DNA of 64,000 nucleotides, taken from assembly GCA_902768125.1 (NCBI GenBank), contig CACXKA010000009.1:1-64000 (forward strand). Direction: 5' to 3'. Shown in pieces: positions 153-56,579 of the stretch. The position numbers were made by a program, and so were the translations under genes. Numbering within the stretch: position 1 is the stretch's first letter; each line of letters begins with the position of its first letter. This DNA comes from an uncultured Bacteroidales bacterium (GTDB lineage: Bacteria > Bacteroidota > Bacteroidia > Bacteroidales > Bacteroidaceae). The notes beneath the pieces are model-generated. The model searched no databases and had not been told where the DNA came from. It worked only from the letters and a program-made list of their open reading frames with translations.

Positions 153-584
153 ATGAGTAGAGGGATTAGAAATTGCAATCCGTTGAACATCCGCAGAAGC
201 AAGGATCAGTGGAAGGGTCTGCTCCCAGTGCAGAACGACAAGAGCTTTTATCAGTTCAAGGCAATGGAATGGGGCTATCGTGCCTCATTCCGACTGCTGA
301 GAACTTACCGAGTGAAGTACAAACGAACCACCGTTCGCACCATCATCGAACGGTGGGCACCACCCAACGAAAACAACACGCAAGTGTACATCGACAAGGT
401 GTGTCAAGAAATGGAGGTACCACCACATTTCATCCTGAACATCGGCAGCCTCCAAGATGATGATGCCTACTGGGCTTGCGAACTCGTCCGAGCAATGGCG
501 TTAGTGGAAAATGGGGTAGGGTGTGCTGACTTGATTAGGAGGGAGGAAATACGAAAAGGGTACGCTTTAGCGTTTGAGATTTGA
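153..584 (+). CDS. P5-like phage-type structural/muramidase-like protein
   Basis: The protein begins MSRGIRNCNPLNIRRS and continues with WGYRASFRLL and IIERWAPPNENNTQVYI. This is the pattern of the small Bacteroidales proteins annotated as structural protein P5, named after a phage membrane-associated lytic protein; these look like one-domain lysozyme-like proteins. An upstream in-frame ATG at 123 would add MKELKNEKMK, but that stretch is a run of degenerate ATGAAA-type units, so the ATG at 153 next to the conserved motif is preferred. The last residues (LAFEI) and the stop codon come from a 7-bp repeat array at 573-600, so the natural C-terminus may have been altered. No other phage gene is nearby, so this is not evidence of a prophage. 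Function in this genome is unknown. Confidence 0.6.
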   Translation: MSRGIRNCNPLNIRRSKDQWKGLLPVQNDKSFYQFKAMEWGYRASFRLLRTYRVKYKRTTVRTIIERWAPPNENNTQVYIDKVCQEMEVPPHFILNIGSLQDDDAYWACELVRAMALVENGVGCADLIRREEIRKGYALAFEI

Positions 585-600
585 GGTTTGAGATTTGAGG
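573..600 (+). repeat. Heptamer array, four units of TTTGAG(A/G)
   Basis: Four 7-bp units run without interruption and overlap the stop codon of the P5-like gene. A 20-bp part (580-599) occurs exactly, in inverted orientation, at 33947-33966 inside the cbiG-cbiF gene. Confidence 0.85.
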
Positions 601-660
601 TTTGGCTCCGCCGTGCTGAAGGTTCTTGGCGAGCCAAGCGTGCTAAAGATACGATAAGAG

Positions 661-695
661 GTTTAAGTCAAGAGTTCAAGGTTCAAGAAGTTCAA
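661..695 (+). repeat. Degenerate heptamer array (TTCAAGR-like)
   Basis: Units GTTTAAG, TCAAGAG, TTCAAGG and TTCAAGA follow one another in the gap between the P5-like gene and the terminator of the protease gene. It belongs to the same period-7 class as the array at 573. Confidence 0.6.
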
Positions 696-704
696 AGTTG
701 GGGG

Positions 705-736
705 AATCTGCTCACACTCGAAAGTGTGGGCAGATT
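705..736 (-). terminator. Hairpin terminator of the M6 protease gene
   Basis: Two 14-bp arms (705-718 and 723-736) pair completely apart from one wobble pair. Read on the minus strand the loop is UUCG, a stable tetraloop. It lies 4 bp beyond the protease stop codon. There is no strong T tract, so it may act as a 3' stabiliser as much as a terminator. Confidence 0.6.
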
Positions 737-740
737 CTGT

Positions 741-2261: not shown

Positions 2262-2287
2262 AGTAGTTGTTATTATTAAATCTGCTG

Positions 2288-2295
2288 CAAAGGTA
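2288..2295 (-). promoter_or_regulatory. -7 promoter element TACCTTTG of the M6 protease gene
   Basis: Exact match to the Bacteroidetes consensus TAnnTTTG on the minus strand, 27 bp before the start codon. Confidence 0.75.
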
Positions 2296-2394
2296 CGAAA
2301 AATCCTCCACATCGTGGCGAAACGGAGGATTCTTTTGTGTCTTTTTAGGAGATTAGGTATTCATACCTTGTTCCCCCAAAAAGTTAGGGTTATG

Positions 2395-5641: not shown

Positions 5642-8600
5642 ATGAAAAAATCTACTCACATCTTGCGAACGCGGCCGTGGCTCGTGCTACTGGCGCTCTT
5701 CGCTTGGCTGCTGCCTCAGAGAGCGCATGCAGTAGCCTATTTGCATGACCCCGACAACTACTCAGTGTCGCTGGGCGGAACGAACATCGTGTATTTCGAA
5801 GCTCCGGTCTATGACTGCAATGGCTTGGACCAGTGGATTACCGATGGTAACCTGAAGGTCTCTGTAGATGGCGGTACGGAATACACCGTCTTCTCATGGC
5901 ATTCTGCAGAGACGGACATCAACAACTCCAACACGTCGCTGTCGTGCTACTTCAGCACCCCTACCGACGGATTCTTCGACATCACGCTGGGCAACACACA
6001 CAGCACATCCAGATTGACGAAGAGTAACGCAGGCAACCGCACCCTGCAGCGCAACAGCGACGGACTGCGCTTCAGCTTCAGCGCCGAGTGGGTGGTGCCC
6101 TACAACCTGTTGGGCAAGACGCTGAAGTTCACTTGGGAAGTGAAGCGCGATGGTAACGGCTATGATAACATATCGGTGACCGGTCTGAAGTCGGCGACCA
6201 TCAAGATTCCGGAGGCCAGTGCCAAGATGACGCCCTTTGTCTCGCCAGCCATGCTGAACAACAACAACCCGGGCAAGCTGGAAGTGCCTTGGTACATTCC
6301 CGCTGACGACCTCGTCAAGGCTTCCTACGAGTATGACGACGGCTATGGCAAGCACCACAGCGTGGAAATCAAGGACATGAAGAACGGTACCATCATGCTC
6401 GATGCCAACGAGCCACACCGCAACTTCTGCCTGATGGTCAGCTACAACGAGAAAGGTGAAAAGGGAACCTACCTCATCGAGAACCAGAAGTCTGACGTGC
6501 AGAACATTGCGATGATTCACGCCCCCACGGGTCTGACGCTTACCCCCAGCTATGGCAACAATGCCAAGGTGGAACTGAAGTGGAGCGTACCTTATATGAA
6601 TGACGAAGACCTGACGCCCACCGACTTCTTCGAGATTCAGCGCTCGCTGACGGGCAAGGAGGAGGACTTCGTCACCATCTTCGAGCAGTTCTATGCCAAG
6701 ACCGACAAGAAATCTGTCTATACCTACACCGACAGCACGCTGGTGGAGGCGATCACCGAACGTATGCTGAAGAACGGCGGCACGTTGGACAATGTGACTT
6801 ATCGCGTACGCCGCGTCATCACCAAGGAATGGGGCTGGAGTTCACAGAACAACTGCGCCACCACCGCCTCATGCGCGCTCGACAAGATGCACCTGCTGCG
6901 CATTGCCGACTACACGTCGCGGTGGGAAGACCAGCGGGCCTACACCGTACGCGTGTCGTGGGACTATGCTGCCGACCGCAGTGCCGTGTGGGACGAACGG
7001 GCAGAGATGAAGGTGCTCGTGCTCTCGCGCAACCGCGACGGTGAGCAGGTCGATAGCACCGTCATCACCCTCAACCCCACCGAGCGCCAGCAGCGCTACA
7101 CGGTGGTGAACCTCTCGCGCTCGTGCGTGTACTATGATATAAAGGTATATGTGGAGCGAGGCGAGTCGCCACTCCAGCTGTTCGACGGCGTGGAGGAAAA
7201 CTTCTTCCCCATCCGCAATGCCGATGACTGGAAGGAGTTCAAAAACAGGGTTCAGGTGGCTGAAGGCAAGTACGACGTGAACGCCCGCCTCTATGCCGAC
7301 ATCACCACCGACCAACTCATCAGTTGGGAGTCACGTTATGCCTATCGTGGTGTTTTTGACGGTAACGGCCACACCATTACCTTCAACTTAGCGGACACCA
7401 AGCAGGAAATTATGGCGCCCTTCCGCTATGTAGGCAATGCCACTATCAAGGACCTGCGTACGGCAGGCACCGTCAATACTAGCGAAAGATATGCAGCAGG
7501 TCTTATCGGCAAGACCATGGAAGGGACCACGGTCAGCATTGAGAACTGCCGCTCGTCGGTTACGCTCAAGAGTTCTGTATCTGGAAATGTCACGGGACGT
7601 CTCGCCGGCTTCATAGCACGCCAGAGTGGTTCCAATGCCCTCATCCGCAACAGTAAGTTCGACGGCGGTTTCGAGGGTGCCAATGCCACCCACAACTGCG
7701 GCTTTGTTGCATGGGTTGCCCGTGGCAGCAGTCTGGCCATAGACAACTGCGTTTTCGCCCCCGACCATATTACCACCAAATTCGAAGGCTGTCAGACGTG
7801 GGCAGACTTGGACACTGAGGATGTCAAATACTCGAACATCAACAGTTATACAACCCGTGAATATTCAGCATTTATAGTCATTAGAAGTGCTGCAGACTGG
7901 CATCAGTTCGCAGTCATGGTAAATGATGCCACAAACCGCTATTGGGTGGATGCTGTCCTCGATGCCGACATCACCGTCAGCGAGCATGTGGGAGTATCTG
8001 ATGGCGCTTACTACCGTGGTACCTTCAACGGCAACGGACATACCATTACCTTCAACAAGTCGGGCTGGTCGGAAAGGTATATTGCTCCCTTCCGATACGT
8101 AGGCAATGCTACTATCAAGAACCTGCATACAGCGGGAACCATCTCGAGCAGCAATATGTATGCTACCGGTCTCGTGGCTTATGTCGTCAGTGGTGGTAAT
8201 CTGACCATAGAGAACTGCCATTCGTCGATGACCATCAACAACAGCGGAAGCAGCGACATGACCAGTGCCGGTTTCGTGGGACGCGTCAGTGGCGGCAACG
8301 TCACCATCCGCAACAGCAAGTTCGACGGCAGCTTCGAGGGTGCCAACAGCTACGGTCACGGCGGCTTCGTGTCGTGGGTAGCCCCCAACAGCAACGTCAC
8401 CATCGAGAACTGCCTCTTCGCTCCCGACCACCTCAGCGTCAAGTTTGACCTATGCGATACCTGGGCACGCAAGGATGCCGATGCATCGGCTAAGGTGACG
8501 GTAACGAACAGCCATGCCACCAAGCATATGCCATGTGAATTCATAGAGATCGGCGGCCAGTGGTTTATGGTGCTGAAGAGCACCACTGACTGGGGATATT

Positions 8601-11600
8601 TCGTGGAAGCATTAAAAACGAATCCCGCCACCAACGCTATCATGGATGCTGATTTCGGAATTGTCACCTCTGCGGACAACTTCAACGGTATTTTTGATGG
8701 TAACGGTCATATACTGAATATTAATATCGATGGTGGATTAACTGAAGCAATCGCCATTTTTAAGAATGCCCCAGGCTGCACTATCAAGAACCTGCATGTC
8801 ACCGGCTATATCAAAGGCGGTAACCACTTGGCAGCTCTCGTTGGCGTGGCAGGTGTGGCGAACAACAAGTGGACTGACATCTTTAACTGCCGCATATCTG
8901 CCAATATAGTGAGTTCAGATTGGTTAGTTGGCGGCTTCGTCGGCCGCGGAACCCATGCAAACATACAAAATTGTCTGTTCGACGGCCGCCTTGAGTGTCA
9001 AAAAGCACAGGTTGATGGCAGTCAGAACTGGGCTGGTGTGTTTTTTGGTTTCAAAGATGGCGAACGAGGTGCCAAGGTTACCGATGCAGCCGTAAGCAAT
9101 TGCGTGGAGAACACAACATGGAGAAACATTATTCACATGTACACAAACGTCTCACCATGGCGCAGATGGGGTAATGACGAGAACGAATGGACTAAAAACA
9201 ACTATACATATAACGATCTTTGGGTTGCCACCGACTGCAGTAAAATGGCAGCCAATGACTTGGCTAACAAATTGGGTAGCAGCGAATGGGAAGCCAAACA
9301 GGGTGCCAGCAATTGGATAGAACCAGGCGTATATGTCTATCCCATAATGCATAAAACCGCTATTCCTGAGAATCCTTGGTTAGCACTAAGCGCAGCCCAG
9401 CAGGTAGAGGCCTTAGGCAATGGCAACTGGACGGTATCCGGCGGCAAGGTGGTTCCCATCATGCCTACTAACACGATAGCAACAGTAACCAACGAGGAAA
9501 GTTTCTTAAACAAACTCGGCAACGGCTGGACGTTAGAAGGCGGCGTGCTCGTGCCCGTTGCAACGGCAACGACGGTGGAGACCAACCCCACCATCACCAC
9601 GCACACGGCAGCCGACTTCACGCAGTACTACCACTCCAGCAACGGTAAGATTGACCCGGAACTGCTGACGGAGACCCGCCAGAGCAGTGTGCTGCTGACC
9701 TGGAACACAGACGGCAACCCCATCGACTTCTACACCGTTCTGCGCCGCAACAAGGGACAGGGTGATGACAAGTGGGAGGAGATTGCCACCAACCTCGACC
9801 AGATGAGTTACGAGGACGTGACCACGTCACCGCTGTTAGAGTATGAATATAAGGTGCGCGCCACTAACCAGTGCGAAGGCATCACCACGACAGAGACGCA
9901 GGTGAAGGCTGGACGCTGTAAGGGCACGGGCCGCGTGGAAGGCTATGTGCGCTTCAACGACGGCACAGGTGTGGCAGGCATCCAGGTGGAGATAGAATAC
10001 AACGGCACGAAGGTGAACGCCACCACCGACGAGAGCGGATACTACGTGGCAGACGAATTGTCGTATCAGGGTAAGACGGACATCACCTACAACGTGACTC
10101 CAGTGGCCAAGGGTGGCGTCGAGATTAAGCCGACCTCATCTACCGTGAACTTCAACGCCCACAGCAACAACGAGACGATGGGCGAGTTCACCGTCAACAA
10201 CGGCAAGCGCTTCTCGGGCTTCGTGATGTACGAAGGCACCAGCATCCCGCTGAAGGGTGCCAACTTCAAGGTGAACGGAGAGTTGGTACACAGCGCCAAT
10301 GGCAAACTGGTGGAGACCGACTACGACGGCTCGTTCTCGTTCCGCGTGCTGCCTGGTGTGAACACCATCCAGGTGGTGAAGGACGGTCACAAGTTCATTG
10401 ATGACGGCTACTACAAGAGCCCGGATGGCCACAACTTCACTGCCGACGTAGCCAACACCTACCTGTATGACGATACGAAGGTGAAGCTGACTGGTCGCGT
10501 GGTGGGTGGTAACGATCAGGGCAAGATGCCGCTGATGAACAACCTGTCGAAGAACAACCTGGGCGACTCGCTCCAGATTGTGCTCACGCTGGAGGGCGAC
10601 AACACCTCATGGCTGGTCTATGAGAACACGAACCCCAACAAGACAGAGCGCGACACCATCTATCAGCATCGTCTGGCAAAGGGCGGCGAGGTGCACAAGA
10701 CCGAGGTGAATACCACACGCAAGCGCATGGTGATATGGCCCGACGTGAAGACGGGTGAGTATGAGGTGCTGCTGCCTCCTGTGCGCTGGAAGGTGATGCA
10801 GGTATATTGCAAGGGCTATCCCACACTGTTCCAGGAGGGACAGGTGAACGACATCATCGACCTGACCGACTGCCTCACGGAGAAGGACACCACCTACGTG
10901 GGCTCCTTCAAGGATGTGGACCAGAAGGTGGTCACTGACCCTAAGGCCAGCTACAATGCCATCTACAACCGCATCTACCACTCACCAGTGGAGGTGACCT
11001 ACAAGCAGATGGGCTACGACAACTTCGACTACTTCGGCGACAAGAACTACATGGCCAGCTCCCTGGACGGCAAACAGCACGAAGTGCCGCTGGCGTACCA
11101 GAACCCTGCCGACACCACGCAGGCGCTCTACACTTTCAACTATCCCGTGTTCAGCATGGAGCGCAAGTACCGCATCCAGCTGCAGGTGGCTGAGAGTTAT
11201 CTGTATAACAACGATCCCAAGTATAAGCCAGACCTCGTCCGTCTGGACGGTGGCATTGCCTACATGCAGAACGGCATGAAGGGCGACTCCTACAAGGTGC
11301 CACAGGAACTGGACAGCCTGGGACAGACTATCTTCACCGTGCTCGCTGACCAGACGGTGACGCTGCGCACGAACACGCCAGAAATGATGACGGGTGAGAA
11401 TGCCCTGAAGACGGTGACCTTCACCGTGCTGCGTGACGGCACTTACTACGAGGCAAAGCCGCTGCAGGGATTCGTGCTCAACATGTTCCCATTGGGTGCC
11501 AGCCAGGACATTCTGACCGAGGGTGTGCCCCTCCTCTACGACATCCTGCGCGACCCACCGGGCGGCTACAGTACGAACACGCTCGCCAAGGGCGCTACGC

Positions 11601-14600
11601 TCAACTACACCTACATGATGAACCTGTCGGCAACAGCCGGTATCTACATGAACTTTAAGGGAGGTACGAAATTGGAGACCTTTACAGGCACCGTGGCAGC
11701 GCCACAGGGTGTCGGTACTGCAGCGGGTCCGATCAGCATCTCCGACACATGGAATGCCGACGTTGACATGCTGATGTATAATGCGCAAGGCAGCAAGGCT
11801 TTCTCGCACACGATGGTTATCGGCAACAACATCAGCACCAGCGGTGACCCATCGATGGTGGGTGCAGATGCCGACCTCTACATCGGTACCGTGCAGAACG
11901 TAGTGGTGACACCGATGTCCACCATCCGCGCCGTGCCCGACAGCATGTATAAAGTCATGAGTGCCCGTACAGGCGCAATGGCAGGTATGACTTCCGATGT
12001 GGGCAAGTACGACCAGTATGGTACGGTGATTAAGCTTGCCGAGGGCGAAACCATAGATAAGGACGGAAAGAAAAAGAAGTTCCACCTGATTCGCGATGTA
12101 TCGTTAGGCTATGGTCCGAAGGTCAATTCGCAGTTCGTCTATTCGCAGAAGCAACTGCTGAATCAGATTATCCCTGCCAAGGCGAAGGAGATTGTCGATA
12201 TGATGTACTGTGGCACCAAGGACGAGGCACAGGCGATAGCCAACAACACGCAGAAGCCAGTCTATCTGTCGCTGCGCGAGCCTACCGACCCGAAGTTCGC
12301 CATGGTGAACAGTAAGGATAAGCTCAAAAACCATGCCTACAACGACTCCATCGACAAGGCTGAGGATGGCATCAACTACCTTGTGGTGATACCTAAAGAC
12401 AGGAAGGCAAGCGAATTCAGTGACGAGGTGGCAGAGAAGTATCAGGTGATCAAAGCATGGGTGGATATGATTGCCCTGAACGAGAACGAGAAACTGCATG
12501 CCCGCGACCTGCTGGCCAACTACGACATCGCCGGTGCTGCAGGTGTGAACTACAGCGAGACCTTCGATGCCAGCTACTCGAACTCGTTCACACAGCATTT
12601 CCCCATCGCCACGGAGGTTGACTATTTCGAGCTGGGCAAGGGTGCCAGCAATGCCTTCTCGGCAGTAGGACTGGCTGGTACGATAGTCGGTGGCCTTGTT
12701 GCCTCTCTCGCAGAAATGAAGTCATGGAAGGTTCCCGATTCTCAGGTGCATGTGGGTACAGACGAAAACGGATTGAAAGCAGAGGTTTTATTCGGGGGAA
12801 AATTCTCGCAGTTTACGATTGTCCCTGTCATCTCTTACACAACGATTGGCACCGACAGTGAGACGAAGTCGTACAACCGCACGGAGTCGTTCACCATTGC
12901 CTGCGACCCGAACAGCCATCTGAACGTGGATGTTTACCGAGTGGGCGGTGAATACACCGGCAAGAAAAAGATAAATATCAGCAACGTCTTTGTCAACGAC
13001 AACTTCAACCAGTATTATGACATGGTGAAGGGACATATGGAGAAAACACTGAGAGGTGACAGCATCCTCGGCCCTCGCAGTTTCGTCTTCCGCACTCGTG
13101 GCGGCGCGACGCAGAACCCGTGGGAGGACAAGCGCGTGACGAAGATTACCGACCCAGGCGCCCAGTTAGATGCTCGCACACTGAAGATTGTCAACCCAGT
13201 GATTCGCCTTGACAAGCAGAGCGTGAGCGGTGTGGCTATCGACGATGCTGCCAAGTTCACCATCTATGTGAGCAACGAGAGTGAGAAGCCCGAGGCCACC
13301 GACGGCTTGACGGCGCTCCAGTTGTTCGCTCCCGACCAAGCGAATTGGCAGGGTGCCAAAATCAGCGTCAACGGACAACAGCTGACTACTGGCGGTATGA
13401 CCATCTCCGTCATTCCGGGCCAAGAGACGGCACTGCAAATGGAGGTACGCGCTGGCCAGGGCTTCGACTACGAGGGTCTGACTGTGGGTGTGATGTCGCC
13501 CTCCGATATGGAGAACGCATTGGCACTCACCACCTTCGACGTACACTTCCTGCATGAGGCGGGAGGCGTGAGCATCGCAACGCCGGGCGACAAGTGGGTG
13601 ATGAACACCGAGGCGCAGCAGGATCCTGAGCGCGGATGGTACATACCTGTCATCATCAACGGCTTCGACCGCTATCAACATAACTTCGACCATGTGGAAC
13701 TCCAGTATAAGGAGTCGCAGCGCGGCGACGACGCTTGGACGAACCTCAGCTCATTCTATTGCGACTCAACACTGATGGCGAATGCCAACGGTGTGAAGAA
13801 GATGATGCCGACGAACGGCAACATCGTGACTGAGTTCTTTGGCGATGGCTGGGTGACCGAGAAGAATTACGACCTGAGAGCCGTGCTCTTCTGCCGCAAC
13901 GGCAGCGACTTCTTGACTACACCATCGAAGATTATCAGCGGTGTGAAGGACACGCGCCGTCCGCAACTGTTCGGCACACCTGAACCCAAGAATGGTCTGC
14001 TGACCAGCGGTGACAACATCATCTTCAACTTCTCTGAGGACATTGAAAAGAACAACCTCTCTGCCATTACCAACTTCGAGGTGAGGGGCGAGGTGAACAA
14101 TGCCGACCTCCAAGAGACCGTAAGCGTGCAGTTCACCGGCAAAGGCAGCATAGAGACCGAGGCTAAGCGCAACTTCAGCGGTAAGGATTTGACCATCGAC
14201 CTGATGGTGAAGCCCGACACGCTGGCAGGACGTGACATGCCGCTGTTCTCACACGGCACCAACGGCCAGAAGCTGCAATTGTGGCTGACCAAGGACTTCA
14301 AGCTGAAGGCTGTGGTCAACAACGAGGAATTTGTCAGTGACTCTGTCATCAACAAGATGGGCTTCTCGCAGGTGGCTCTCGTCATCCGACAGGAGGACGA
14401 CTCGCTTACATTCTTCAATGGAGGTGTACAAGCCGGCAAGAAGTACAAACTCAGCGAGAAATACACCGGCACGGGTACGCTCATCTTCGGTCGCACCAAC
14501 GACCTCGACCGCAGCAAGAGCCAGTACTACCAGGGTCGCATGATGGAAGCCCGCCTGTGGTATAACGCCATGAGCGGCGGACTCATCGGCACGACCTACG

Positions 14601-21657: not shown

Positions 21658-21664
21658 CTTTTTA

Positions 21665-21704
21665 ATTCTTCAATTCTTCAATTTTTCAATTTTTCAATTC
21701 TTCA
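21665..21704. repeat. Octamer array, five units ATTYTTCA
   Basis: Units ATTCTTCA, ATTCTTCA, ATTTTTCA, ATTTTTCA and ATTCTTCA fill the gap between the glutathione peroxidase and MarR genes. The last unit contains the glutathione peroxidase stop codon. The same 8-bp unit, inverted, recurs at 24513. Confidence 0.8.
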
Positions 21705-22247
21705 AGCAAGCATTGCTTCAATGTCTTTCTCAAAGTCCTTCGGCTCAGTGGTGGGAGCGTAACGCTTGATGGTCTTTCCGTCCTTCGAGATGAGGAATTT
21801 GGTGAAGTTCCACTTGATGTCGCTGTCTTTCTCCACGCTTTTGCTGATAGCCTTGAAGAGCGTCTTGGCAGCCTTTGCCTTCAGACCGTTATACTCTTCG
21901 GTGGGAGCTTGTGTTTTCAGATACTCAAAGATGGGTTCTGCAGCAGGACCATTCACGTCGGTCTTCTTCATGATCTGGAAGGTCACGCCGTAGTTCAACT
22001 GGCAGAACTCCTCAATCTGTCCGTCAGAGCCAGGATCCTGTTCCTTGAACTGGTTGCAGGGGAAACCGATGATGACCAGACCCTTGTCCTTGAACTTCTG
22101 GTTCAATTCCTCCAGTCCTGCGAATTGAGGGGTGAATCCACACTTGCTGGCTGTGTTGACAATCAGCAATACCTTACCTTCGAACTGAGCGAAATCCAGT
22201 TCCTTACCTTTGCTCGTCTGAGCCTTGAAATCATAAATCTTTTCCAT
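21702..22247 (-). CDS. Glutathione peroxidase-family thiol peroxidase
   Basis: 181 residues. The peroxidatic site NTASKCGFTPQF, the GFPCNQF motif and the WNFTKFL motif are all present, so the Cys, Gln, Trp and Asn of the active site can be placed. It has Cys, not selenocysteine. Proteins of this type in bacteria usually reduce peroxides with thioredoxin. The start at 22247 (MEKIYDFKAQ) is chosen over one five codons upstream because the family begins there. First gene of an operon with the MarR regulator and radical SAM gene; the promoter is flanked by two palindromes. Confidence 0.9.
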   Translation of the reverse strand: MEKIYDFKAQTSKGKELDFAQFEGKVLLIVNTASKCGFTPQFAGLEELNQKFKDKGLVIIGFPCNQFKEQDPGSDGQIEEFCQLNYGVTFQIMKKTDVNGPAAEPIFEYLKTQAPTEEYNGLKAKAAKTLFKAISKSVEKDSDIKWNFTKFLISKDGKTIKRYAPTTEPKDFEKDIEAMLA

Positions 22248-24507: not shown

Positions 24508-24512
24508 GGAAA

Positions 24513-24638
24513 AATTGAAGAATTGAAAAATTGAAGAATTGAAAAATACAATAAAGAATCTAAAAAATGAAATAATGAATAAAAAAATATGGAAGAAAAC
24601 AACTTTAATCCTTCAATTCTTCATTTTTTCAATTCTTT
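24513..24638. repeat. Octamer array with inverted counterpart between divergent promoters
   Basis: Four units AATTGAAR run at 24513-24544, and a partly matching inverted arm (CTTCAATTCTTCATTTTTTC) lies at about 24609-24638. The A+T-rich middle separates the cbiA promoter from the riboswitch promoter. The same unit is at 21665. The 24493-24841 gap holds only this, two -7 elements and the riboswitch. Confidence 0.7.
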
Positions 24639-31746: not shown

Positions 31747-32951
31747 AGTTCTATGTAATCGGCATCACCGACAAACCACACCCGTTCTTTCCTCCCGATG
31801 TACTGAACGTGATTCAGAGTGGACACACTTTCTCTGGTGGCAAGCGTCACCATGAGATTGTCACCCCATACCTTCCCGATGGGGCTGAGTGGATTGACAT
31901 CACAGCTCCCCTCACAGCAGTCTATGAGCAGTATCAACACTCAACCCTCCATACTCCACAGTCAACCATCATCGTCTTTGCCTCGGGCGACCCTCTCTTC
32001 TTCGGCTTTGCCAACACGCTCAAACGTGTATTTCCCGATGCAGAGATGAAGGTCTTTCCCACCTTCAACTCCCTACAGATGCTGGCACATCGCCTACTGA
32101 TGCCCTACCATGACATGCATGTCGTCTCCCTCACAGGTCGCTCATGGCAGGAGTTCGACCGTGCCCTTATCGAAGGGGCTTCTCCTATAGGCATCCTGAC
32201 CGACAAGGAACATACTCCTGCCGCCATTGCCCAGCGTATGCTCGAATTTGGCTATACCGATTACACCATGCATATTGGGGAACATCTGGGTAATCCCCAA
32301 CACGAAAAGCTTTCTATCCTCCCATTGGAACAGGCATCCCAGCAGGACTTTTCCATGCCCAACTGCCTTATCCTCATAGGTGCTCACCCACGAAGATGGG
32401 GTATTCCCGACCACGAATTCGCTCTTCTCGACCATCGAGAGAAGATGATCACCAAGATGCCTATCCGAATCCTTTCCCTACAGGCACTCGATTTGCCTCG
32501 CCGTCATACGCTATGGGACATTGGCTTCTGTACGGGCAGCATCAGTATAGAAGCCCGTTTGCAGTTTCCACACCTTCACATCGAGGCTTTCGATATCCGA
32601 CCTGATTGCGAAGCTCTTCTTCGGGAGAATGCGCGCCGTTTTGGAGCACCTGGCATCAATATGCACATCGGCAACTTCTTGGAAGCTGACATCACATCTT
32701 TGCCCCGTCCTGATGCTGTTTTCATCGGTGGTCATGGCGGGCAGCTCAAAGACATCCTCAAGAAGGTGCTGACCGTATTGACCGATGACGGATGTATCGT
32801 GATGAATAGCGTGAAAGCCCCCAAGGTCTTGACCGACAGTCACCAGCTTTGGGACGAGGCTTGCGAAGAACTTGGTTTGATACAAGATGCACCTTCCAAA
32901 ATCATATTGAACGAAAACCATCCAATCGAGATACTAAAATGCAGCAAATAG
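31743..32951 (+). CDS. cbiET: Precorrin-6Y C5,15-methyltransferase (decarboxylating), CbiE-CbiT fusion
   Basis: 402 residues. The first half is CbiE (KFYVIGITDKP, VFASGDPLFFGF, VVSLTGRSWQEF); the second is CbiT (LWDIGFCTGSISIEA for SAM binding, AVFIGGHGG, IVMNSVKAP). Together they methylate C5 and C15 and remove the acetate carboxyl at ring C. Residues 66-75 (STLHTPQST) come from a 28-bp heptamer array at 31939. The array is just before the conserved IIVFASGDP strand. It starts by ATGA overlap with cbiHC and its 3' end overlaps the next gene by 13 bp. Confidence 0.9.
   Translation: MKFYVIGITDKPHPFFPPDVLNVIQSGHTFSGGKRHHEIVTPYLPDGAEWIDITAPLTAVYEQYQHSTLHTPQSTIIVFASGDPLFFGFANTLKRVFPDAEMKVFPTFNSLQMLAHRLLMPYHDMHVVSLTGRSWQEFDRALIEGASPIGILTDKEHTPAAIAQRMLEFGYTDYTMHIGEHLGNPQHEKLSILPLEQASQQDFSMPNCLILIGAHPRRWGIPDHEFALLDHREKMITKMPIRILSLQALDLPRRHTLWDIGFCTGSISIEARLQFPHLHIEAFDIRPDCEALLRENARRFGAPGINMHIGNFLEADITSLPRPDAVFIGGHGGQLKDILKKVLTVLTDDGCIVMNSVKAPKVLTDSHQLWDEACEELGLIQDAPSKIILNENHPIEILKCSK
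31939..31966 (+). repeat. Heptamer array inside cbiE
   Basis: Units ACTCAAC, CCTCCAT, ACTCCAC and AGTCAAC are read in frame within the CbiE domain. Loss or gain of one unit would shift the frame. Confidence 0.7.
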
Positions 32952-34435
32952 CAGTCATACAAATCAATGAGGCTGGCAAAGATATCGCATTCTTGCTTCA
33001 GCGTCAGTTTAGTGCCCAAATCATACAACGAACAGATGTAGGTGAGTATTGGAACGACTTTGATGCTTTCATCTTCATCGGAGCGATGGGTATTTGTGTT
33101 CGCACTATTGCTCCCTATATCAAAGACAAGCATGAAGATCCTGCGATTGTATGTATCGACAGTCTGGGGAAGAACGTCGTCTCCGTTCTCTCTGGACATA
33201 TCGGAGGTGCCAACGACCTGACCCGTCAAGTAGCCACCCTCCTCGAAGCCAATCCCGTCATCACTACCCAAAGCGACAACGCTGGTTTGTGGGCGCTCGA
33301 CACGTTGGAGAAGCGCTTCGATTGGTCTATTGCCAGTGGCATAGAAGATATGAACGACTGCATTTTTGCTTTTGTCAATCGTCAACCCACCGCTTTGCTT
33401 TTAGAGGTAAAAGATGAGGGCACCGACTATCTGGAGAAGACGCTTCCAACCCATGTGACCCTCATCAATGACATCAAAGAAGCCACGTCTGACAAGTACA
33501 AGTTACTCATTATCGTGTCACCTTTCAATCTGCCATATCCTGCCAATATGCTGGTTCTGCATTTTGTGCCGATGGTGGGAACGATAGGCTTTGGATTAGC
33601 ACATCATCCACAGGATTACAAACAGATATATGACGAGATCAACCAGGCATTTGCCGAGCGAGGTATCTTGCCATGTTCCCACCGTTATTGTACCATTGAC
33701 GTGAAGGCTGAAGAACCCTTTGTGGACGAGTTGAGGAATGTGTATCACGAAGATGTGGTGTTCTTCACCGCGGATGAACTGGCGAAAGTTGAAGTGCCCA
33801 ATCCCAGCACTACTGTTGAGAAGCATGTGGGCACGCCCAGTGTATGTGAGGCAGCCGCTATCATAGGGTCTAATTATGGTGAACTCATCATTCCTAAGGT
33901 GAAAGGCAAGAACTGGACAGCAGCCCTCGCCATCGACAAGCAACATCTCAAATCTCAAACCTCAAACTCCCAATCTCACATTGAGATTGTGGGTGCTGGT
34001 CCTGGCGACCCCGACCTCGTGAGTGTTCGTGGACGAAAAATGTTGGAGAAGGCAGACCTGATTCTCTATGCAGGTTCTCTGGTGCCCAAGGCATTGACTG
34101 AATGTCACAAGCCCGGTGCAGTAGTGCGTTCGTCTGCCGACATGAACCTCGAAGAGCAATGTGCCCTCATGAAGGATCATTACGACCAAGGTCATTTCAT
34201 CGTTCGTTTACACACGGGAGATCCTTGCATCTTCGGTGCTATTCAGGAGCAGATGGCATTCTTCGATCGGCATCAGATGTCCTATCACATCACCCCAGGC
34301 ATTTCTTCCTTCCTTGCTGCTGCTGCTGAGTTGAGAAGTCAGTTCACCATTCCAGAACGTACACAGACCATCATCCTTACACGAGGCGAGGGGCGTACTC
34401 CTATGCCGGAAAAGGAGTGCAGCCATCGTGGATGA
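32939..34435 (+). CDS. cbiG: CbiG hydrolase fused to a truncated precorrin-4 C11-methyltransferase (CbiF/CobM)
   Basis: 498 residues. Start at 32939 (MQQIAVIQINEAGKD) by overlap with cbiET. Residues 1-335 are CbiG (IFIGAMGICVRTIAPYI, SVLSGHIGGANDLTR, then CEAAAIIGSNYGELIIPKVK), which opens the delta-lactone and releases acetaldehyde. Residues from about 347 are CbiF (IEIVGAGPGDPDLVSVRGRK, LHTGDPCIFGAIQEQM, TRGEGRTPMPEKE). After PEKE the frame leaves the family and stops five codons later; the rest of CbiF continues in another frame at 34419. About 18-20 family residues are missing at the junction. CbiG is probably intact; CbiF is not. A heptamer array codes the linker between the domains. Confidence 0.88.
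   Translation: MQQIAVIQINEAGKDIAFLLQRQFSAQIIQRTDVGEYWNDFDAFIFIGAMGICVRTIAPYIKDKHEDPAIVCIDSLGKNVVSVLSGHIGGANDLTRQVATLLEANPVITTQSDNAGLWALDTLEKRFDWSIASGIEDMNDCIFAFVNRQPTALLLEVKDEGTDYLEKTLPTHVTLINDIKEATSDKYKLLIIVSPFNLPYPANMLVLHFVPMVGTIGFGLAHHPQDYKQIYDEINQAFAERGILPCSHRYCTIDVKAEEPFVDELRNVYHEDVVFFTADELAKVEVPNPSTTVEKHVGTPSVCEAAAIIGSNYGELIIPKVKGKNWTAALAIDKQHLKSQTSNSQSHIEIVGAGPGDPDLVSVRGRKMLEKADLILYAGSLVPKALTECHKPGAVVRSSADMNLEEQCALMKDHYDQGHFIVRLHTGDPCIFGAIQEQMAFFDRHQMSYHITPGISSFLAAAAELRSQFTIPERTQTIILTRGEGRTPMPEKECSHRG
33946..33973 (+). repeat. Heptamer array at the CbiG-CbiF junction
   Basis: Units TCTCAAA, TCTCAAA, CCTCAAA and CTCCCAA encode the linker LKSQTSNSQ. It shares 20 exact bases, inverted, with the array at 580-599. 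Confidence 0.85.
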
Positions 34436-34694: not shown

Positions 34695-34730
34695 AGATAC
34701 TATTCAAATCGGGTGAAGATAGTATTCGCT
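34666..34730 (+). repeat. 22-bp tandem repeat, about 2.9 copies
   Basis: The unit CGGGTGAAGATACTATTCAA plus AT is exact at 34666-34687 and 34688-34709 and partial at 34710-34730. It covers the end of the cbiF remnant and abuts the stop codon of the GH30 gene on the other strand. Confidence 0.9.
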
Positions 34731-37308: not shown

Positions 37309-39093
37309 ATGGTATTAGTTTTTGGTGGCACGACCGAGGGGCGCAAGGCGATAGAGGCGCTTGAGGAGGCTGGCAACACGTTCTACTACAGCACGAAGAC
37401 GGGCGAGCAGGACGTGCCGCTCCATCACGGTGTTGCCATCAGCGGAGCCATGGACGCAACCGCCATGACCGTTTTCTGCCAGAAGCATGGCATCAGACTC
37501 TTGGTCGATGCTGCCCATCCTTTTGCCGAGGTGCTGCACCAGACCGTGGCGAACGTGGCAGAGAGATTGAACATCCCAGCCATACGTTTCGAGCGCATCT
37601 TCCCCGCCAGAGACCCTGACATCACATGGATTGATTCCTACGCCTCCCTCATCTCACACCTCTCCCCCCAAAACTGTCAACTGTCAACTGTCAACTGTCA
37701 ACTTTCCACCCTCCTTGCCACCACCGGTGTGCAGAGCATCGCCCAACTAAAACCTTTGGAAGAACAAGGCGTGAAGGTGTATTATCGCATTCTTCCAAGA
37801 GAATCATCCATTGCTTTGGCAAAGAAACAGGGTGCTGTTGATGAACAACTCTGCTACTATGAAGACCCTAGGGAGATTCCTGTGAATGCGGATGCCATCC
37901 TGCTGAAAGAGAGTGGGTCAACTGGCGGTTTTCAGGAGAAGGTGAAGGCGGCAAAGGCATTGGGTATGCAGATCTATGCCATCAAGCGTCCTGAAACACC
38001 CACTATTTTTCATTGTGTGAATGGGGAACATGGTCTCAGGCGGATGGTGGAAAAACTGCTTCCCGAATTCTATCCTCTCCACAGCGGACTGACTACAGGC
38101 ACTTGTGCTACAGCGGCAGCCATTGCAGCAACTACCCGTTTGCTCAAAGGGGAAACACCACAAGAAGTGCCCGTCATCCTCCCCAACGGCGAAACCATCA
38201 TGGTCCCCGTCGGATATGGAGAAGACTACGCCTACTGCATCAAGGAAGCAGGCGACGACCCCGACGTGACGGATGGCATCGAAGTGAGGGCAGAGGTGAG
38301 GCAAGTCGACCAATTTGAAATATGTGGTGGCGAAGGCGTGGGCAGATTCACTTTGCCAGGTTTCGACTATCCTCCAGGCGAGCCTGCCATCAACAAAGCA
38401 CCTCGTCAAATGATTCGCCAGAATCTGGAGAAACTGTCAACTGTTAATTGTCAATTGTCAATTACCCTCTCTGTTCCTCAAGGTGAAGAAATTGCCCGTC
38501 ACACCTTCAATCCCCGTCTTGGCATTGAAGGTGGCATCAGCATCATCGGTGTGTCAGGCATCGTCAAACCCTTCTCGGAGGAAGCCTTCATCGAGAGCAT
38601 CCGCAAGTGTATGGAGGTGGCGAAGGCAAGTGCTTCGGAACGAATCGTGTTGCATAGTGGCATGAAGAGTGAAGGATTCTTACAGGACCACTATCCCCAT
38701 CTCCCTCAACAGGCGTTTGTGGAGTATGGCAATGCCATTGGTGCCGCCTTGCAAATTGCTGACGAACTCCACATTCCCCGCATCACCCTCGGCATCATGT
38801 TGGGCAAAGCTGTGAAACTGGCAGAGGGACACCTCGACACCCACAGCAAAAAACAGACGATGAACAAAGCGTTCATCATCCAGATGTTAGAAGAGTCAGG
38901 CTGTGACACCAAGGTCATCGAACAAATAACAAGCATCACCTTGGCACGCGAACTCTGGGGCATCATCCCCTCCGAACAGATAGAAACCTTTTGCCGCACC
39001 GTCATCCGCCATTGCCTGACGCATTGCGCCCCCCTCCTGCCACACGGCGACCTCACCATCCTTCTGATAGACGACGCTGGCGGCATCCATTAA
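37309..39093 (+). CDS. cobK-cbiD: Fused precorrin-6A reductase (CobK/CbiJ) and C1-methyltransferase CbiD
   Basis: 594 residues. Residues 1-250 are CobK/CbiJ (VLVFGGTTEGRKAIEAL, VDAAHPFAEVLHQTV, IPAIRFER, LLKESGSTGGFQEKV), the NADPH-dependent reductase. From residue 255 it is CbiD (LHSGLTTGTCATAAAIAATT, DDPDVTDGIEVRAEV, INKAPRQMI, LGIEGGISIIGVSGIVKPFS, ITLGIMLGKAVKLAEGHLDTH), which methylates C1. Two heptamer arrays are read in frame: residues 121-132 (NCQLSTVNCQLS) in CobK, and residues 376-386 (LSTVNCQLSIT) in CbiD. It has its own promoter, separated from the other B12 genes by the GH30 gene, and ends at a hairpin. Confidence 0.92.
   Translation: MVLVFGGTTEGRKAIEALEEAGNTFYYSTKTGEQDVPLHHGVAISGAMDATAMTVFCQKHGIRLLVDAAHPFAEVLHQTVANVAERLNIPAIRFERIFPARDPDITWIDSYASLISHLSPQNCQLSTVNCQLSTLLATTGVQSIAQLKPLEEQGVKVYYRILPRESSIALAKKQGAVDEQLCYYEDPREIPVNADAILLKESGSTGGFQEKVKAAKALGMQIYAIKRPETPTIFHCVNGEHGLRRMVEKLLPEFYPLHSGLTTGTCATAAAIAATTRLLKGETPQEVPVILPNGETIMVPVGYGEDYAYCIKEAGDDPDVTDGIEVRAEVRQVDQFEICGGEGVGRFTLPGFDYPPGEPAINKAPRQMIRQNLEKLSTVNCQLSITLSVPQGEEIARHTFNPRLGIEGGISIIGVSGIVKPFSEEAFIESIRKCMEVAKASASERIVLHSGMKSEGFLQDHYPHLPQQAFVEYGNAIGAALQIADELHIPRITLGIMLGKAVKLAEGHLDTHSKKQTMNKAFIIQMLEESGCDTKVIEQITSITLARELWGIIPSEQIETFCRTVIRHCLTHCAPLLPHGDLTILLIDDAGGIH
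37674..37701 (+). repeat. Heptamer array in cobK, four exact units CTGTCAA
   Basis: Four perfect 7-bp units give 28 bp read in frame in CobK, between two conserved strands. Confidence 0.9.
38434..38461 (+). repeat. Heptamer array in cbiD, four units YTGTYAA
   Basis: Units CTGTCAA, CTGTTAA, TTGTCAA and TTGTCAA lie in the CbiD domain of the same gene that holds the array at 37674. Unit 1 is identical to the cobK unit. Confidence 0.9.
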
Positions 39094-39111: not shown

Positions 39112-39146
39112 AAGGGGCACCCGACCCACTCGGATGCCCCTTCTTC
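39112..39146 (+). terminator. Terminator of cobK-cbiD
   Basis: AAGGGGCACCCG pairs with CGGATGCCCCTT with one mismatch and a seven-base loop. The T tract after it is weak. Confidence 0.65.
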
Positions 39147-39165
39147 ATCTATCATTTATCATTTA
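39145..39165 (+). repeat. Short heptamer array, three units TCATTTA-like
   Basis: Units TCATCTA, TCATTTA and TCATTTA follow the terminator of cobK-cbiD. Confidence 0.55.
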
Positions 39166-39174: not shown

Positions 39175-39633
39175 CTAATCCCCATCAGGATCGTCCACCG
39201 GCGTTCCGCCGCCACCTGATGGAGGTAGAGGCTCGTCATCGCCCGTTTCGCCACCACCTGATGGAGGCTGACCGCCACCACCGCCTTGGTCATCACCGCC
39301 ACCTGATGGAGGTAGAGGCTCGTCATCGCCCGTTTCACCACCACCATTGTTGGGCTTGTCGATGTTGCCGCCCGATGCACTGCTGATGTAGTAGAGTTTT
39401 GCACGTTCCTCGATGCTGAGCAGCACGGTGATGAGGGCGTTGAGCGATTCGCTGGGCTGAAGAACGGCGAGTGCGTTCAAAATTTCGTAAGCACTGCGGA
39501 TGGCTGCATCGACCGTCTTGCGTGCAGCGGCCAGTTCGCCCTTCACCTTGGCACTCTCGTTGTCCACGCGCACTGTGATGAGCTGCAGCACCTTGTTAGC
39601 TTGAATGACTGCCTTGCTCACCCACTCGGCCAA
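39175..39633 (-). pseudogene. N-terminally truncated DUF6261-like protein with Gly/Pro/Asp tail
   Basis: 152 residues remain. The first 90 (VSKAVIQANKVLQLITVRVD, RKTVDAAIRSAYEILNALAV, SESLNALITVLLSIEERAKL) are helical and resemble the C-terminal half of DUF6261 proteins, which are usually over 200 residues. The remaining 60 are a repeated low-complexity tail of GGGETGDDEPLPPSGGG units. The coding similarity appears to begin abruptly at the left side of a junction near 39640, where another gene on the opposite strand also begins abruptly. No -7 element precedes it. Family call is from memory of its shape and is tentative. Confidence 0.5.
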
Positions 39634-53812: not shown

Positions 53813-55075
53813 TCACTCTTCTTCCATCAAATCCTTCAGTTTTCTCACAAGTTTCTCCACAAATGTGGGTGTTTTAGGCTCTTCATCCCTTGTCTCCTCC
53901 TCCTCGTGCTCAGAAATATCTTCCTCTGTCTCTGTTGCTTGAGGAATCTCCACCGTTGTTGGCACTTGCTCTTCTACCTGAGGCTTCTCTTCTATCTTTG
54001 GCACCTCATGAGTGCATGAATAAAACTTCTCACGCAAGTCCTTCAGCCGCTTCATCTCATCTTGTTTGGCATGATCCTCGTCTGTTTCGTTCTCCTCCTC
54101 ATCTTGGTCGAAGCCTGTAGCCACTACAGCCACCTTGATTTCATCGCCCAAGGTGTCATCTGGATAGTGTCCCCACAGTACGTCCAGATTCTCGTCAAAG
54201 TTCTCCATGAACTCACTGATTTCCTCCAGTTCATCCATGCGGGCGGGATTCTCGTTGCCACTATACACGATATAGAGCAAGCGACGGATTTTCTGTTTTT
54301 CCACATTCGCCACAAGTGGGGAACTGATGGCCTCCGACAATGCCTTGAAAATGCGCTTCTCTCCACTTGCCTTAGCCACCGACACCAAAGCCGCACCTCC
54401 ATCCTTCATGACGGTACGCACGTCATTGTAGTCTCGGTTGATGCTTCCCTTGACGGTGATGATTTCGGCAATTGTCTTCGTGGCAATGGTCAGCACCTCG
54501 TCTGCCTTCTTCAGTCCTTCCTCAAGCGTCAGATTATTGTATCGCTCATTCTCCAGCAACTTTTGGTTGTTGATGACAATCAGCGAATCCACGCATTTCT
54601 TCAGCGCATCCATGCCCAGCAGCGCCTTGTCCATACGTTTGCGCATTTCCATCCTGAACGGAAGCGTCACCACGCCCACTGTCAGGATGCCCATTTCCTT
54701 TGCCACACGGGCAATCACTGGGGCTGCACCTGTTCCTGTGCCGCCGCCCATACCAGCTGTGACAAATACCATCTTCGTCTCCTCTCCAAACATCGTCTTG
54801 ATGTCCTCAATGCTCTCCTCTGCCATCTCACGTCCCAGTTCAGGAATTCCTCCTGTACCAAGACCTGGTCCAATCTGCATCTTGTTGGGCACCAAGTTTG
54901 CCTTCAGCACCTGACTGTCTGTGTTTGTTACCAGAAAAGACACGTTCTTCACGCCCTCTTCCCACATGTGTTGTACTGCATTTCCGCCACCGCCTCCTAC
55001 TCCGATGACCTTGATAATTCTCTCCGACTTGTCCTCAATGGGAAAGTTGAAAGGAGGTAACTCTTCCTCTTTCAT
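53813..55075 (-). CDS. ftsZ: Cell division protein FtsZ
   Basis: 420 residues. The N-terminal nucleotide loop IIKVIGVGGGGGNAVQHMW, the tubulin signature AGMGGGTGTGAAPVIARVAK (107-124) and the catalytic T7 loop NRDYNDVRTVM (213-223, with the N-x-D-x-x-D residues kept) are all present. The C-terminal linker from about 330 is acidic (EEEETRDEEPK), and the conserved end peptide is replaced by LVRKLKDLMEEE. The gene stands alone between ispE and a PD40 gene, not behind ftsQ-ftsA as in the usual division cluster. It could be the only FtsZ, moved, or a second paralog. Confidence 0.9.
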   Translation of the reverse strand: MKEEELPPFNFPIEDKSERIIKVIGVGGGGGNAVQHMWEEGVKNVSFLVTNTDSQVLKANLVPNKMQIGPGLGTGGIPELGREMAEESIEDIKTMFGEETKMVFVTAGMGGGTGTGAAPVIARVAKEMGILTVGVVTLPFRMEMRKRMDKALLGMDALKKCVDSLIVINNQKLLENERYNNLTLEEGLKKADEVLTIATKTIAEIITVKGSINRDYNDVRTVMKDGGAALVSVAKASGEKRIFKALSEAISSPLVANVEKQKIRRLLYIVYSGNENPARMDELEEISEFMENFDENLDVLWGHYPDDTLGDEIKVAVVATGFDQDEEENETDEDHAKQDEMKRLKDLREKFYSCTHEVPKIEEKPQVEEQVPTTVEIPQATETEEDISEHEEEETRDEEPKTPTFVEKLVRKLKDLMEEE

Positions 55076-55162
55076 TCAATTCTCAGATGTTAATAAGTTA
55101 TACAATCATTTTTAGCCAACCCTCATCGGTTGGCGTCTCACTTTATCATATATTCTCGGGCA

Positions 55163-55170
55163 CAAAGTTA
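55163..55170 (-). promoter_or_regulatory. -7 element TAACTTTG of ftsZ
   Basis: Exact TAnnTTTG match on the minus strand, 88 bp before the start; the leader is unusually long. Confidence 0.6.
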
Positions 55171-55287
55171 CAAAAAGAGAGAAAGAAATCCAAATATCTC
55201 TTTCTCTTTTTTTTGACAAAACTAAAAAAACGGGTTATTTTTCTCTGTTTTTTACAAATGTAAAGGCAGATTTGTAAAATTTACCCC

Positions 55288-56532
55288 TTATTTCACCATT
55301 TCGAGGGTACGAATTTGCTTCTCGAGGGTGTGAACTTCGACTTGCAATTCCCTAATGCGAGCTTCGAGGTTGATGATTTGCTGAGAGGAAGTAGGGGAGG
55401 TTTCCCTCATCTGCTGCAATTGCTCGTTGAGGGTGGTGAGGTTCTTGGACTTCTGGAGCCAATCGCTGCATTGCTTCTTTGCTTCGCTGGATTTGAAATC
55501 GTCCAGAGTGTAACAAGTTCTGCTGTCGTTGAGGATAAACTCAAAATCTCTCACACTATTGACTTTTGCCCTTTGCCCTCTTACTTTTGCCAGACGTTGG
55601 TTGGCTTCTGCTTTCTCCTTTTGCTGTTCATCGGTGATTGGAATGGAAATGATGGAGCGTAATGAAGCGATGGCGCGAAGCTCGTTCAGATCGGTGGTCT
55701 CGTAGTCAATGGTTTGACGTGATTCGTTGGGGACAAATGTGTAGATGCACACTTTCCCTTCAGGTTGGTAGCGGTCACTGGCAAACCATCCGAGGTTGGC
55801 TCCCTCGTCGATGACGAGCATATAGTCATTCGCATAGGAGTTGTAGGGGAGTCCCATGTTCTCTGCCTGATAGAATCGTTTGGATTCGGAGTCGTATCGG
55901 GTGGCGTATAGGTCATAGTTGCCGTAACCCTCTTCGCACCGTGCCGCAAAGTAGAAGGTTTGTCCGTCGGGCATGAGGAAAGGGTAGTTGATGTCACCCT
56001 CAATCCCGAGTCCTTCTATACTCGTACCCTCTGTGAGTCTTCCATTCTCCAGATAGTATCTCACGATATGCAGATGGGTTGTGTCGGAGGCATTGACAGG
56101 AAGAAGGACCATCCCGTTCAGTTGTGTCTGGTACTGAACGATGTCTCCTTTTTCAGAGAGGGTGAGGGTTCCCAAGTCTTCGGAAAGAGGGTAGGCCTTG
56201 AGAAAGTTTTTCTTGTCAACGACAACGCTGTCCACAATCAGCACTCTATCAACGCCCCGCAATCCGTTCTCTCCTTTGTGGCAGATATCGACCACCTTGT
56301 CGTATTCCGCTGTTGATTGGCGTTTGCGCTTGGCTGTCTGGATGAGTTTCTTGGCACTCGCGTCAGCCTTGCTGAATTGAAGCGACAGGATATCGGCATT
56401 CAGGTCTTCCACCGATGAGATAGGAACCAGATAAGGGTAGGTTGGGGCAGCCGCTGGTGCAATGCTGTCGTTTTGAGCGTGAGCCATCAGAGCCACGCAC
56501 GCGTAAATAATATATGTGACAATTCTTTTCAT
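55288..56532 (-). CDS. Exported PD40-like protein with C-terminal coiled coil
   Basis: 414 residues, signal peptide MKRIVTYIIYACVALMAHAQ. The middle carries PD40/WD40-like propeller strands (YPFLMPDGQTFYFAARCEEG, NYDLYATRYD, NLGWFASDRYQPEGKVCIYT). The last 70 residues are a coiled coil (LNEQLQQMRE, IINLEARIRELQVEVHTLEK). In between, LAKVRGQRAKVNS is encoded by a five-unit heptamer array. It follows mutS2 by 57 bp in the same direction with another array between. A peptidoglycan- or envelope-linked role is possible; no function is known. Confidence 0.65.
   Translation of the reverse strand: MKRIVTYIIYACVALMAHAQNDSIAPAAAPTYPYLVPISSVEDLNADILSLQFSKADASAKKLIQTAKRKRQSTAEYDKVVDICHKGENGLRGVDRVLIVDSVVVDKKNFLKAYPLSEDLGTLTLSEKGDIVQYQTQLNGMVLLPVNASDTTHLHIVRYYLENGRLTEGTSIEGLGIEGDINYPFLMPDGQTFYFAARCEEGYGNYDLYATRYDSESKRFYQAENMGLPYNSYANDYMLVIDEGANLGWFASDRYQPEGKVCIYTFVPNESRQTIDYETTDLNELRAIASLRSIISIPITDEQQKEKAEANQRLAKVRGQRAKVNSVRDFEFILNDSRTCYTLDDFKSSEAKKQCSDWLQKSKNLTTLNEQLQQMRETSPTSSQQIINLEARIRELQVEVHTLEKQIRTLEMVK
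55556..55590 (-). repeat. Heptamer array of five units inside the PD40-like gene
   Basis: On the plus strand the units are CTATTGA, CTTTTGC, CCTTTGC, CCTCTTA and CTTTTGC. They encode AKVRGQRAKVN on the minus strand, between the propeller and the coiled-coil part. Confidence 0.75.
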
Positions 56533-56551
56533 TCTGTCTATTCTATTTTTC

Positions 56552-56579
56552 TTTAACCTTTAACCTATAACCTTTAACC
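56552..56579. repeat. Heptamer array of four units TTTAACC
   Basis: TTTAACC, TTTAACC, TATAACC and TTTAACC run between mutS2 and the PD40-like gene. Confidence 0.85.

Follow-up and report, generated by a model that had tools for sequence, protein, structure and literature searches.

The 64-kb window analysed here, the whole stretch of DNA under study (G000:C9:1-64000, 49.7% G+C), belongs to the 2.78-Mb draft genome G000 of a rumen bacterium (41 contigs, about 90% complete) and carries short tandem arrays of heptamer and octamer units. Comparison with relatives revealed that these tracts, alone or in composites around hairpin modules of 24-37 bp, replace short stretches at recurrent sites. In the genes examined the inserts preserve the reading frame, and between near-identical relatives the number of units changes stepwise. 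Furthermore, the heptamer words are lineage-specific genome-wide. The reading that we prefer, with a probability of roughly 45%, is that the arrays are what is visible of a mobile micro-element which spreads by copy-and-fill and is then altered by slippage. Mobility is supported by empty and filled orthologous sites, by lineage words at tens of loci and by an insert resembling other places of its genome, slippage by whole-unit length changes between near-identical relatives. These observations give hints of a tiny, little-studied kind of mobile DNA.

Tandem arrays were scored at a fixed lag with +1 for a match and -2 for a mismatch, and a lag-7 score of 10 or more counted as a pass. Dinucleotide shuffles served as controls (40 for the window, three for a 400-kb sample of its own genome and one for 80 named loci from relatives, which comprise 1.46 Mb and were scored at a stricter threshold). 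G and L numbers denote genomes and loci. The named relatives of one protein of the window are mostly metagenome assemblies of Prevotellaceae / Bacteroidaceae from the rumen or another ruminant gut; a few are Prevotella or Xylanibacter isolates, and arrays were present in one of three isolate loci (L147). Most genomes are draft assemblies and the species are not independent. Genes were called by a simple longest-open-reading-frame (ORF) scheme.

The window contained seven period-7 arrays compared with a mean of 0.03 in its shuffles, and two period-8 arrays compared with 0.15. At most one array was found at each of the periods 2-6, 9-11 and 13, and two at period 12. The excess was reproduced in the 400-kb sample, where 60 arrays of period 7 (0.3 in shuffles) and 22 of period 8 (0.7) were detected; periods 6, 9 and 12 were raised too (11, 18 and 8 arrays), and the rest of periods 2-13 had 0-6. 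In the 80 loci, 170 period-7 arrays were counted versus none in the shuffle and 30 period-8 arrays versus one. Codon structure alone does not yield period 7. Short samples from same-order genomes of other families, 196.6 kb altogether, held two period-7 arrays. Four whole units were present in 119 of 223 arrays, 32 bp was the most frequent length, and perfect runs in the pooled sample numbered 394, 33, 31, 2 and 1 at 2, 3, 4, 5 and 7 whole units. The peak at four is not a detection artefact, because simple decay from 394 and 33 leaves few at four units. With tandem 7-nt units beyond chance and copy variation by whole units, the arrays belong to the heptameric simple sequence repeats.

The arrays are insertions at recurrent sites, which lie between genes or in frame within CbiJ, CbiD, CbiG, TrpF and a DegT aminotransferase. 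The window encodes a CbiJ-CbiD fusion with one array in each part. The CbiJ array is present in G016 too and absent from G005, and the CbiD array is common to G016 and G005. In an AlphaFold model of the fusion (mean predicted local distance difference test score, pLDDT, 85; 18 sequences), the CbiJ array falls into a low-confidence coil (residues 124-133, pLDDT <50 at 125-129) and the CbiD array into a predicted coil (375-382, following helix 363-374) and the start of a strand (383-388). Among 81 loci, the window included, the CbiD site harbors a period-7 array in 24, with 13 distinct words; the shortest form (39 nt) occurs in 16, and others have different or decayed inserts. A second kind of in-frame insert at this site, G-rich and hairpin-like (e.g. 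CCCCTCC...GGAGGGG...GGGTGGG), was seen in several species (L074, L077, L089, L113, L118 and L121).

The remaining sites behave similarly. At position 31939, where 12 orthologs were inspected in one comparison and 18 of 60 in another, orthologs carry (CTGTCAA)4 and other words; as these include clear four-unit arrays, the window's array is a decayed one. The CbiG site at 33945 has AACTCTA words in G016 and a short stretch in most displayed relatives. TrpF could be read in 20 of 30 loci, ten being dropped since the reading motif was unmatched. Thirteen of these loci were empty, G005, G017, G014 and G042 had arrays of 28-32 bp with similar yet different words, G000 and G006 a composite and G016 another insert. 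DegT was readable in 26 of 30 loci (four dropped), some of which may not be orthologs because DegT paralogs exist; 18 were empty and eight longer. A clear period-7 score was obtained for the composite of G000 and for G044 and G053 (ATTCTTC), a weak one for G012. G016 and G042 resemble degenerate TCAACTG-type sequence but gave no score, and G047 and G054 were different. An array site of G016 had 27 orthologs, and the array was lacking in all 14 displayed. In the promoter region at 24509-24637, arrays stand on both sides with words that differ among G000, G016 and G023, and none is found in G005 or G001. Octamer arrays of the AATTGAAG type occurred several times as such facing inverted pairs, about 35-105 bp apart (window 24509-24637; L013, L015 and L018). 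For 50 array pairs less than 400 bp apart, 18 were alike in inverted and nine in direct orientation.

How an array arrives can be seen best at DegT, which is empty in G006. Identity between the two proteins amounts to 82% across the 65 residues that precede the insert and 95% across the 75 that follow it. Read by eye, the G000 insert of about 84 nt stands in place of about 15 nt; in this one clear pair there was no target duplication, and the empty G006 allele has no copy of the word. The insert resembles, in whole or in part, at least 44 other places in G000 (32-78 nt; 40 of 99 first-look candidates scored), and the best matches among the scored candidates reached 92-95% over 65-73 nt; the resembling tracts include a hairpin module. 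Likewise, comparison of L104 with L084 and L116 at the G016 site showed about 18 nt replaced by about 42 nt. Over all aligned sites, again read by eye, inserts of tens of nt took the place of approximately 10-24 nt, and no target duplication was evident.

Once in place, arrays change by whole units. Alleles with flanks of 97-100% identity differed in length by steps of 14, 21 and 28 bp, and 57 of 137 comparisons were unchanged. Positions 670-2900 of the window are 99.0% identical in G006. The match ends inside the 661-699 array (L307 around 1500) and the neighbouring gene beyond it differs, so that arrays may be points of rearrangement. The 661-699 arm possibly differs from G006 by one heptamer; as BLAST aligns it with a 1-nt gap, the difference was not counted as a unit step.

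The words themselves are diverse, with 84 distinct canonical units among 223 arrays, and several unrelated ones coexist in one genome. Match counts per genome are complete for the TTTGAGR and TCAACTG words and for the hairpin module M1 described below; the reversed-pattern control is not clean for the words, as reversed TCAACTG is its own rotation and reversed TTTGAGR another word in use. Three consecutive TTTGAGR units matched 92 times in G000 (about 46 places), 53 times in G006 and 16 times in G001. The remaining 22 congeners that were searched had no match, and 16 genomes from other families had one in total. G016 shares 79-89% DNA identity with G000 in the cobalamin region and yet has no TTTGAGR triplet. 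Triplets of TCAACTG were found in G017 (33), G010 (31), G016 (27), G003 (17), G005 (13), G023 (12), G011 (8), G006 (5), G000 (4), G008 (2) and G014 (2), and in none of the other 30 of 41 genomes. The TCAATGG triplet had 12 matches among the 41 genomes, all of them in G001.

The preferred reading would work as follows. While a broken or stalled site is being repaired or replicated, the growing strand might switch briefly to an array or composite elsewhere, copy about 30 nt or more and then return. Arrays already present would serve both as donors and as favoured targets, and old words would be overwritten by new ones, letting each genome drift to its own vocabulary. No dedicated enzyme would be involved, and selection would mainly purge gene-breaking inserts. 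Several points weigh against this reading. Copying itself was not observed, neither an enzyme nor a pathway was identified, and the replaced lengths were read by eye. Related words share one register at CbiD and TrpF, which old single inserts with in-place homogenisation would also give; such homogenisation must therefore act as well. Array ends were examined for a fixed phase and none was found. Triplets of TTTGAGR, TCAACTG or TCAATGG had no match in 13 of 24 same-genus relatives. Word coherence inside 20-kb loci is weak: in the 80 loci, exact-word pairs made up 7.8% within loci (n=244) versus 2.5% between loci (n=14090). When arrays 1 kb or more away were considered, nine of 19 loci had one that differed from the CbiD word by no more than one mismatch (null 5.0, P=0.017), and four of 19 had an identical one (null 1.9, P=0.11). 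Finally, array flanks share little generally apart from M1 and the second module, M2. Shared 11-mers numbered 70 at 64 merged places versus 32.5 (standard deviation 13.7) in controls, 3 of 200 of which reached 70; the commonest were promoter boxes. A bolder version, which we consider doubtful, states that the genus carries a genome-wide, self-copying heptamer vocabulary. At breakable positions, some of them inside core enzymes, repair or replication would repeatedly write the current word of the lineage over about 30 nt. Words would then spread, supplant each other and diverge like dialects, and proteins would gain new species-specific loops without any transposase.

Local polymerase slippage alone is an unlikely explanation for the whole picture. 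Chance duplications of 7 nt, the length favoured by the polymerase, would grow in place and would be homogenised by further slippage. This would fit the whole-unit changes between near-identical alleles, the single register at CbiD and TrpF, a 21-bp super-repeat and the words that morph gradually along an array. It is difficult to reconcile with a word that occupies about 46 places in one genome and is missing from 22 congeners, with an empty DegT allele that offers no local seed of the word, with a DegT insert that resembles distant tracts including a hairpin module, and with perfect arrays that peak at four units instead of following geometric decay. Slippage was also proposed, with a polymerase footprint, in the survey of Mrazek 2007 as reported in the part of PMC4679880 available to us, according to which heptanucleotides are the most abundant class in most genomes. 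The favoured status of long heptamer microsatellites in most bacteria has been a question since that survey, as quoted there. The copying process could be read directly in this genus, which has many lineage words, sites in both the empty and the filled state and tracts that resemble one another within a genome. Moreover, the genus shows a steady source of in-frame insertions into conserved enzymes.

Many TTTGAGR arrays in G000 and G006 adjoin the 24-bp mini-hairpin module M1 (TTTGGCTYCGCCGAGCTGAAGGTT), which has the form (A/T)TTGGCTNCGCC... with a core starting TTGGC. Within three mismatches, 28 matches were present in G000 and none in the reversed control. M1 occurs in 13 of 16 genus genomes, G000 included, and in none of nine genomes of other families; at one mismatch it was absent from 117 other genomes sampled across the phylum. 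TTTGAGR stands on the left in 21 of 24 copies (one mismatch, G000 and G006, orthologous copies counted apart), and M2 follows directly in five of the 24. ATTGG variants of M1 in G000 (L011 and L018) have no TTTGAGR on the left, and some of the 26 contexts that were read show other words, such as ATTCGTG or CTTCAATC, in other genomes and in the G000 copy L177. The M1 stem comprises 3 bp, with 95.2% of cells paired over 14 hand-chosen variants; covariation in these variants is limited to one pair, a score reached by 25 of 500 shuffles. The M2 stem has about 6 bp as judged by eye. In G000, in-frame copies of the composite lie in TrpF, DegT, a CvfB-like protein and the purple acid phosphatase N-terminal and metallophosphoesterase domains, the last two copies being 800 bp apart and perhaps in one gene. 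In G006 it is in frame in a Kdo-type kinase, and three reading frames are used over the proteins of both genomes. Beside the window's composite lies a 153-amino-acid ORF (123-584) without a Pfam or NCBIfam match. This sequence (window 112-590) is multi-copy: G000 has several further copies of 70-93% identity, and others are found in G006, G041, G016, G052 and G013.

These dispersed M1/M2 hairpins with array arms would suit a dedicated transposable micro-element whose trans-acting enzyme recognizes the hairpin or array, as in REP elements with their tyrosine transposase, and six of the seven core-motif sites in the sample have an array no more than 100 bp away, a zone that makes up about 4.7% of the DNA. 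However, many words form arrays without M1, and neither a target duplication in the one clear pair nor a fixed array phase was found. No Y1 transposase (PF01797) was detected in G000 or G016, and other transposases were not searched. Taken together, this explanation appears rather unlikely. Mobilisation of the RAYT/IS200 type was rejected because neither genome gave a PF01797 match.

The arrays are enriched between genes. According to the crude gene call, 30 of 53 arrays in G000 and 38 of 170 in the named loci are intergenic, with 9.7% and 7.3% noncoding DNA, respectively. This enrichment, together with the facing pairs in a promoter region and the conservation of about four units and 32 bp while the word changes, would be expected if a DNA- or RNA-binding protein read about four heptamers and its changing specificity drove the change of words. 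We regard selection of this kind as improbable, given that 112 of the 170 arrays lie inside ORFs, several at the same enzyme sites, that the promoter site at 24509 is empty in G005 and G001, and that unrelated words share a genome. In contingency (phase-variable) repeats, copy number switches a frame or a promoter; the in-gene arrays that were read here leave the reading frames open. TCA/TGA is present in half of the 84 units compared with 27% of shuffled units. RNA-templated repeat addition, in which a telomerase-like reverse transcriptase with a built-in heptamer template setting the lineage word would act at breaks, is very improbable in view of several words per genome and of the hairpin modules and mixed words that are carried along, even though constant period, variable word, about four units, replacement without target duplication and the share of units with one strand lacking G or C (56% of the distinct units, 46% expected) would agree with it.

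An earlier, sequence-only reading of the window had described one mobile or slippage-born family of period-7 arrays, most often of four units, at 13 places, and had proposed a comparison with shuffled sequence and an alignment of empty orthologous sites. Both comparisons bore out the excess, the clustering at four units and the replacement without evident target duplication, and the proposed origin came close, with evidence for mobility as well as for slippage. Eight of the places passed (573, 33946, 37674, 38434, 39145, 56552 and the octamers at 21665 and 24513). The array at 661 fails the strict test and remains an array if insertions and deletions are allowed (Tandem Repeats Finder, TRF), and that at 31939 is recognizable through its orthologs. 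The places at 5591 (two copies) and 43174, both below threshold, and 55556 (2.1 copies in TRF) are not above chance. The TTTGAGR word, read from opposite strands, accounts for the 20 bases that it had found common to 580-599 and 33947-33966. Its list lacked the facing partner at 24603-24637 and a weak coding array at 17100-17123, and it did not describe hairpin composites, in-frame use across species or lineage-specific words; its entries at 573 and 661 turned out to be two arms of one composite (573-604 and 661-699) with M1 and M2 between them.

Arrays and modules in the window. Positions are those of the 64-kb stretch.
Feature	Position	Strand	Remarks
TTTGAGR heptamer array, left arm of composite	573..604	+	lag-7 score 16, 4.6 units
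M1 mini-hairpin module TTTGGCTCCGCCGTGCTGAAGGTT	601..624	+	28 matches in G000 within 3 mismatches
M2 module CTTGGCGAGCCAAGCGTGCTAAAGATACGATAAGAGG	625..661	+	directly after M1 in 5/24 copies read
Degenerate TTCAAGA/GTTCAAG array, right arm of composite	661..699	+	TRF 668-699, indels allowed
Octamer array AATTCTTC between two minus-strand genes	21664..21705	+	
Octamer array, left arm of facing pair, promoter region	24509..24547	+	
Inverted partner of the 24509-24547 array	24603..24637	-	TRF, ortholog comparison
Decayed heptamer array in precorrin-methyltransferase-type gene (31743-32951)	31939..31969	+	ortholog alignment
TTTGAGR array between CbiG_C and TP_methylase domains	33945..33978	-	
Perfect CTGTCAA array, 4.6 units, in frame, CbiJ part of CbiJ-CbiD fusion	37672..37703	+	codons ~122-132
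CTGTCAA/TTGTCAA array, in frame, CbiD part of CbiJ-CbiD fusion	38432..38463	+	codons ~375-386
Short TCATTTA array between genes	39145..39165	+	
CTTTAAC array in gap between two minus-strand genes	56551..56592	+	

The window also contains longer tandem repeats at 39212-39345 (42 bp, 3.1 copies) and 34666-34727 (22 bp, 2.8 copies), and positions 5642-17425 form a single open frame of 3927 amino acids. A search of positions 400-900 against Rfam gave two matches, both far under the gathering score.

Among known systems, Rickettsia palindromic elements are long palindromes inserted in frame, and in more than one reading frame, in conserved proteins. The present inserts are similar in that they enter protein genes in more than one frame. 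In contrast, they are not long palindromes, since the M1 stem has 3 bp and the bulk consists of tandem heptamers. REP, BIME and REPIN elements are short dispersed hairpins in mosaic arrangement that are associated with RAYT transposases. The composites share the short dispersed hairpins and the mosaic arrangement, whereas the M1 core TTGGC differs from the GTAG or CGTC tags named for REP palindromes in the title of PMC3733652, and the roughly 90% complete G000 has no Y1_Tnp match. Unlike a transposon or miniature inverted-repeat transposable element, the DegT insert of G000 shows no target duplication relative to G006 (one clear pair).

The sequence-only reading had known of no described family with these properties. 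This does not hold for heptamer arrays as such, which are known from marine Beggiatoaceae, some cyanobacteria and Bacteroidetes (TAACTGA; MacGregor 2015, PMC4679880) and from Xanthomonas and Nostoc (GGGAATC / GGGGA(C/T)T; Rehm 2015, PMC4692102), the latter paper also citing three tandem heptanucleotides of Calothrix, as far as the excerpts of both sources go. According to these excerpts, the Xanthomonas and Nostoc arrays resemble ours in being heptamers that are mostly intergenic and vary in length and sequence between close relatives. They are G-rich and potentially quadruplex-forming, whereas the words found here are mostly not G-rich and many arrays lie inside genes. The open-licence literature searched, as far as its text was accessible, contained nothing on lineage-specific words replacing each other at fixed enzyme sites and no description of array-hairpin composites; that search also returned nothing on heptamer repeats in Prevotella. 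Within this literature, the heptamer arrays are thus of a known kind, and the replacement of words at one site, the in-frame invasion of genes and the composites with hairpins are undescribed. The difference is clearest for the TAACTGA arrays, which in the available portion of PMC4679880 consist of one fixed word, sit for the most part directly before start codons in the main genome and have related heptamers that are rarely repeated. The arrays of this genus, with 84 words in 223 arrays and many of them inside ORFs, are distinguished by lineage-specific vocabularies, in-frame inserts in enzymes and composites with hairpins.

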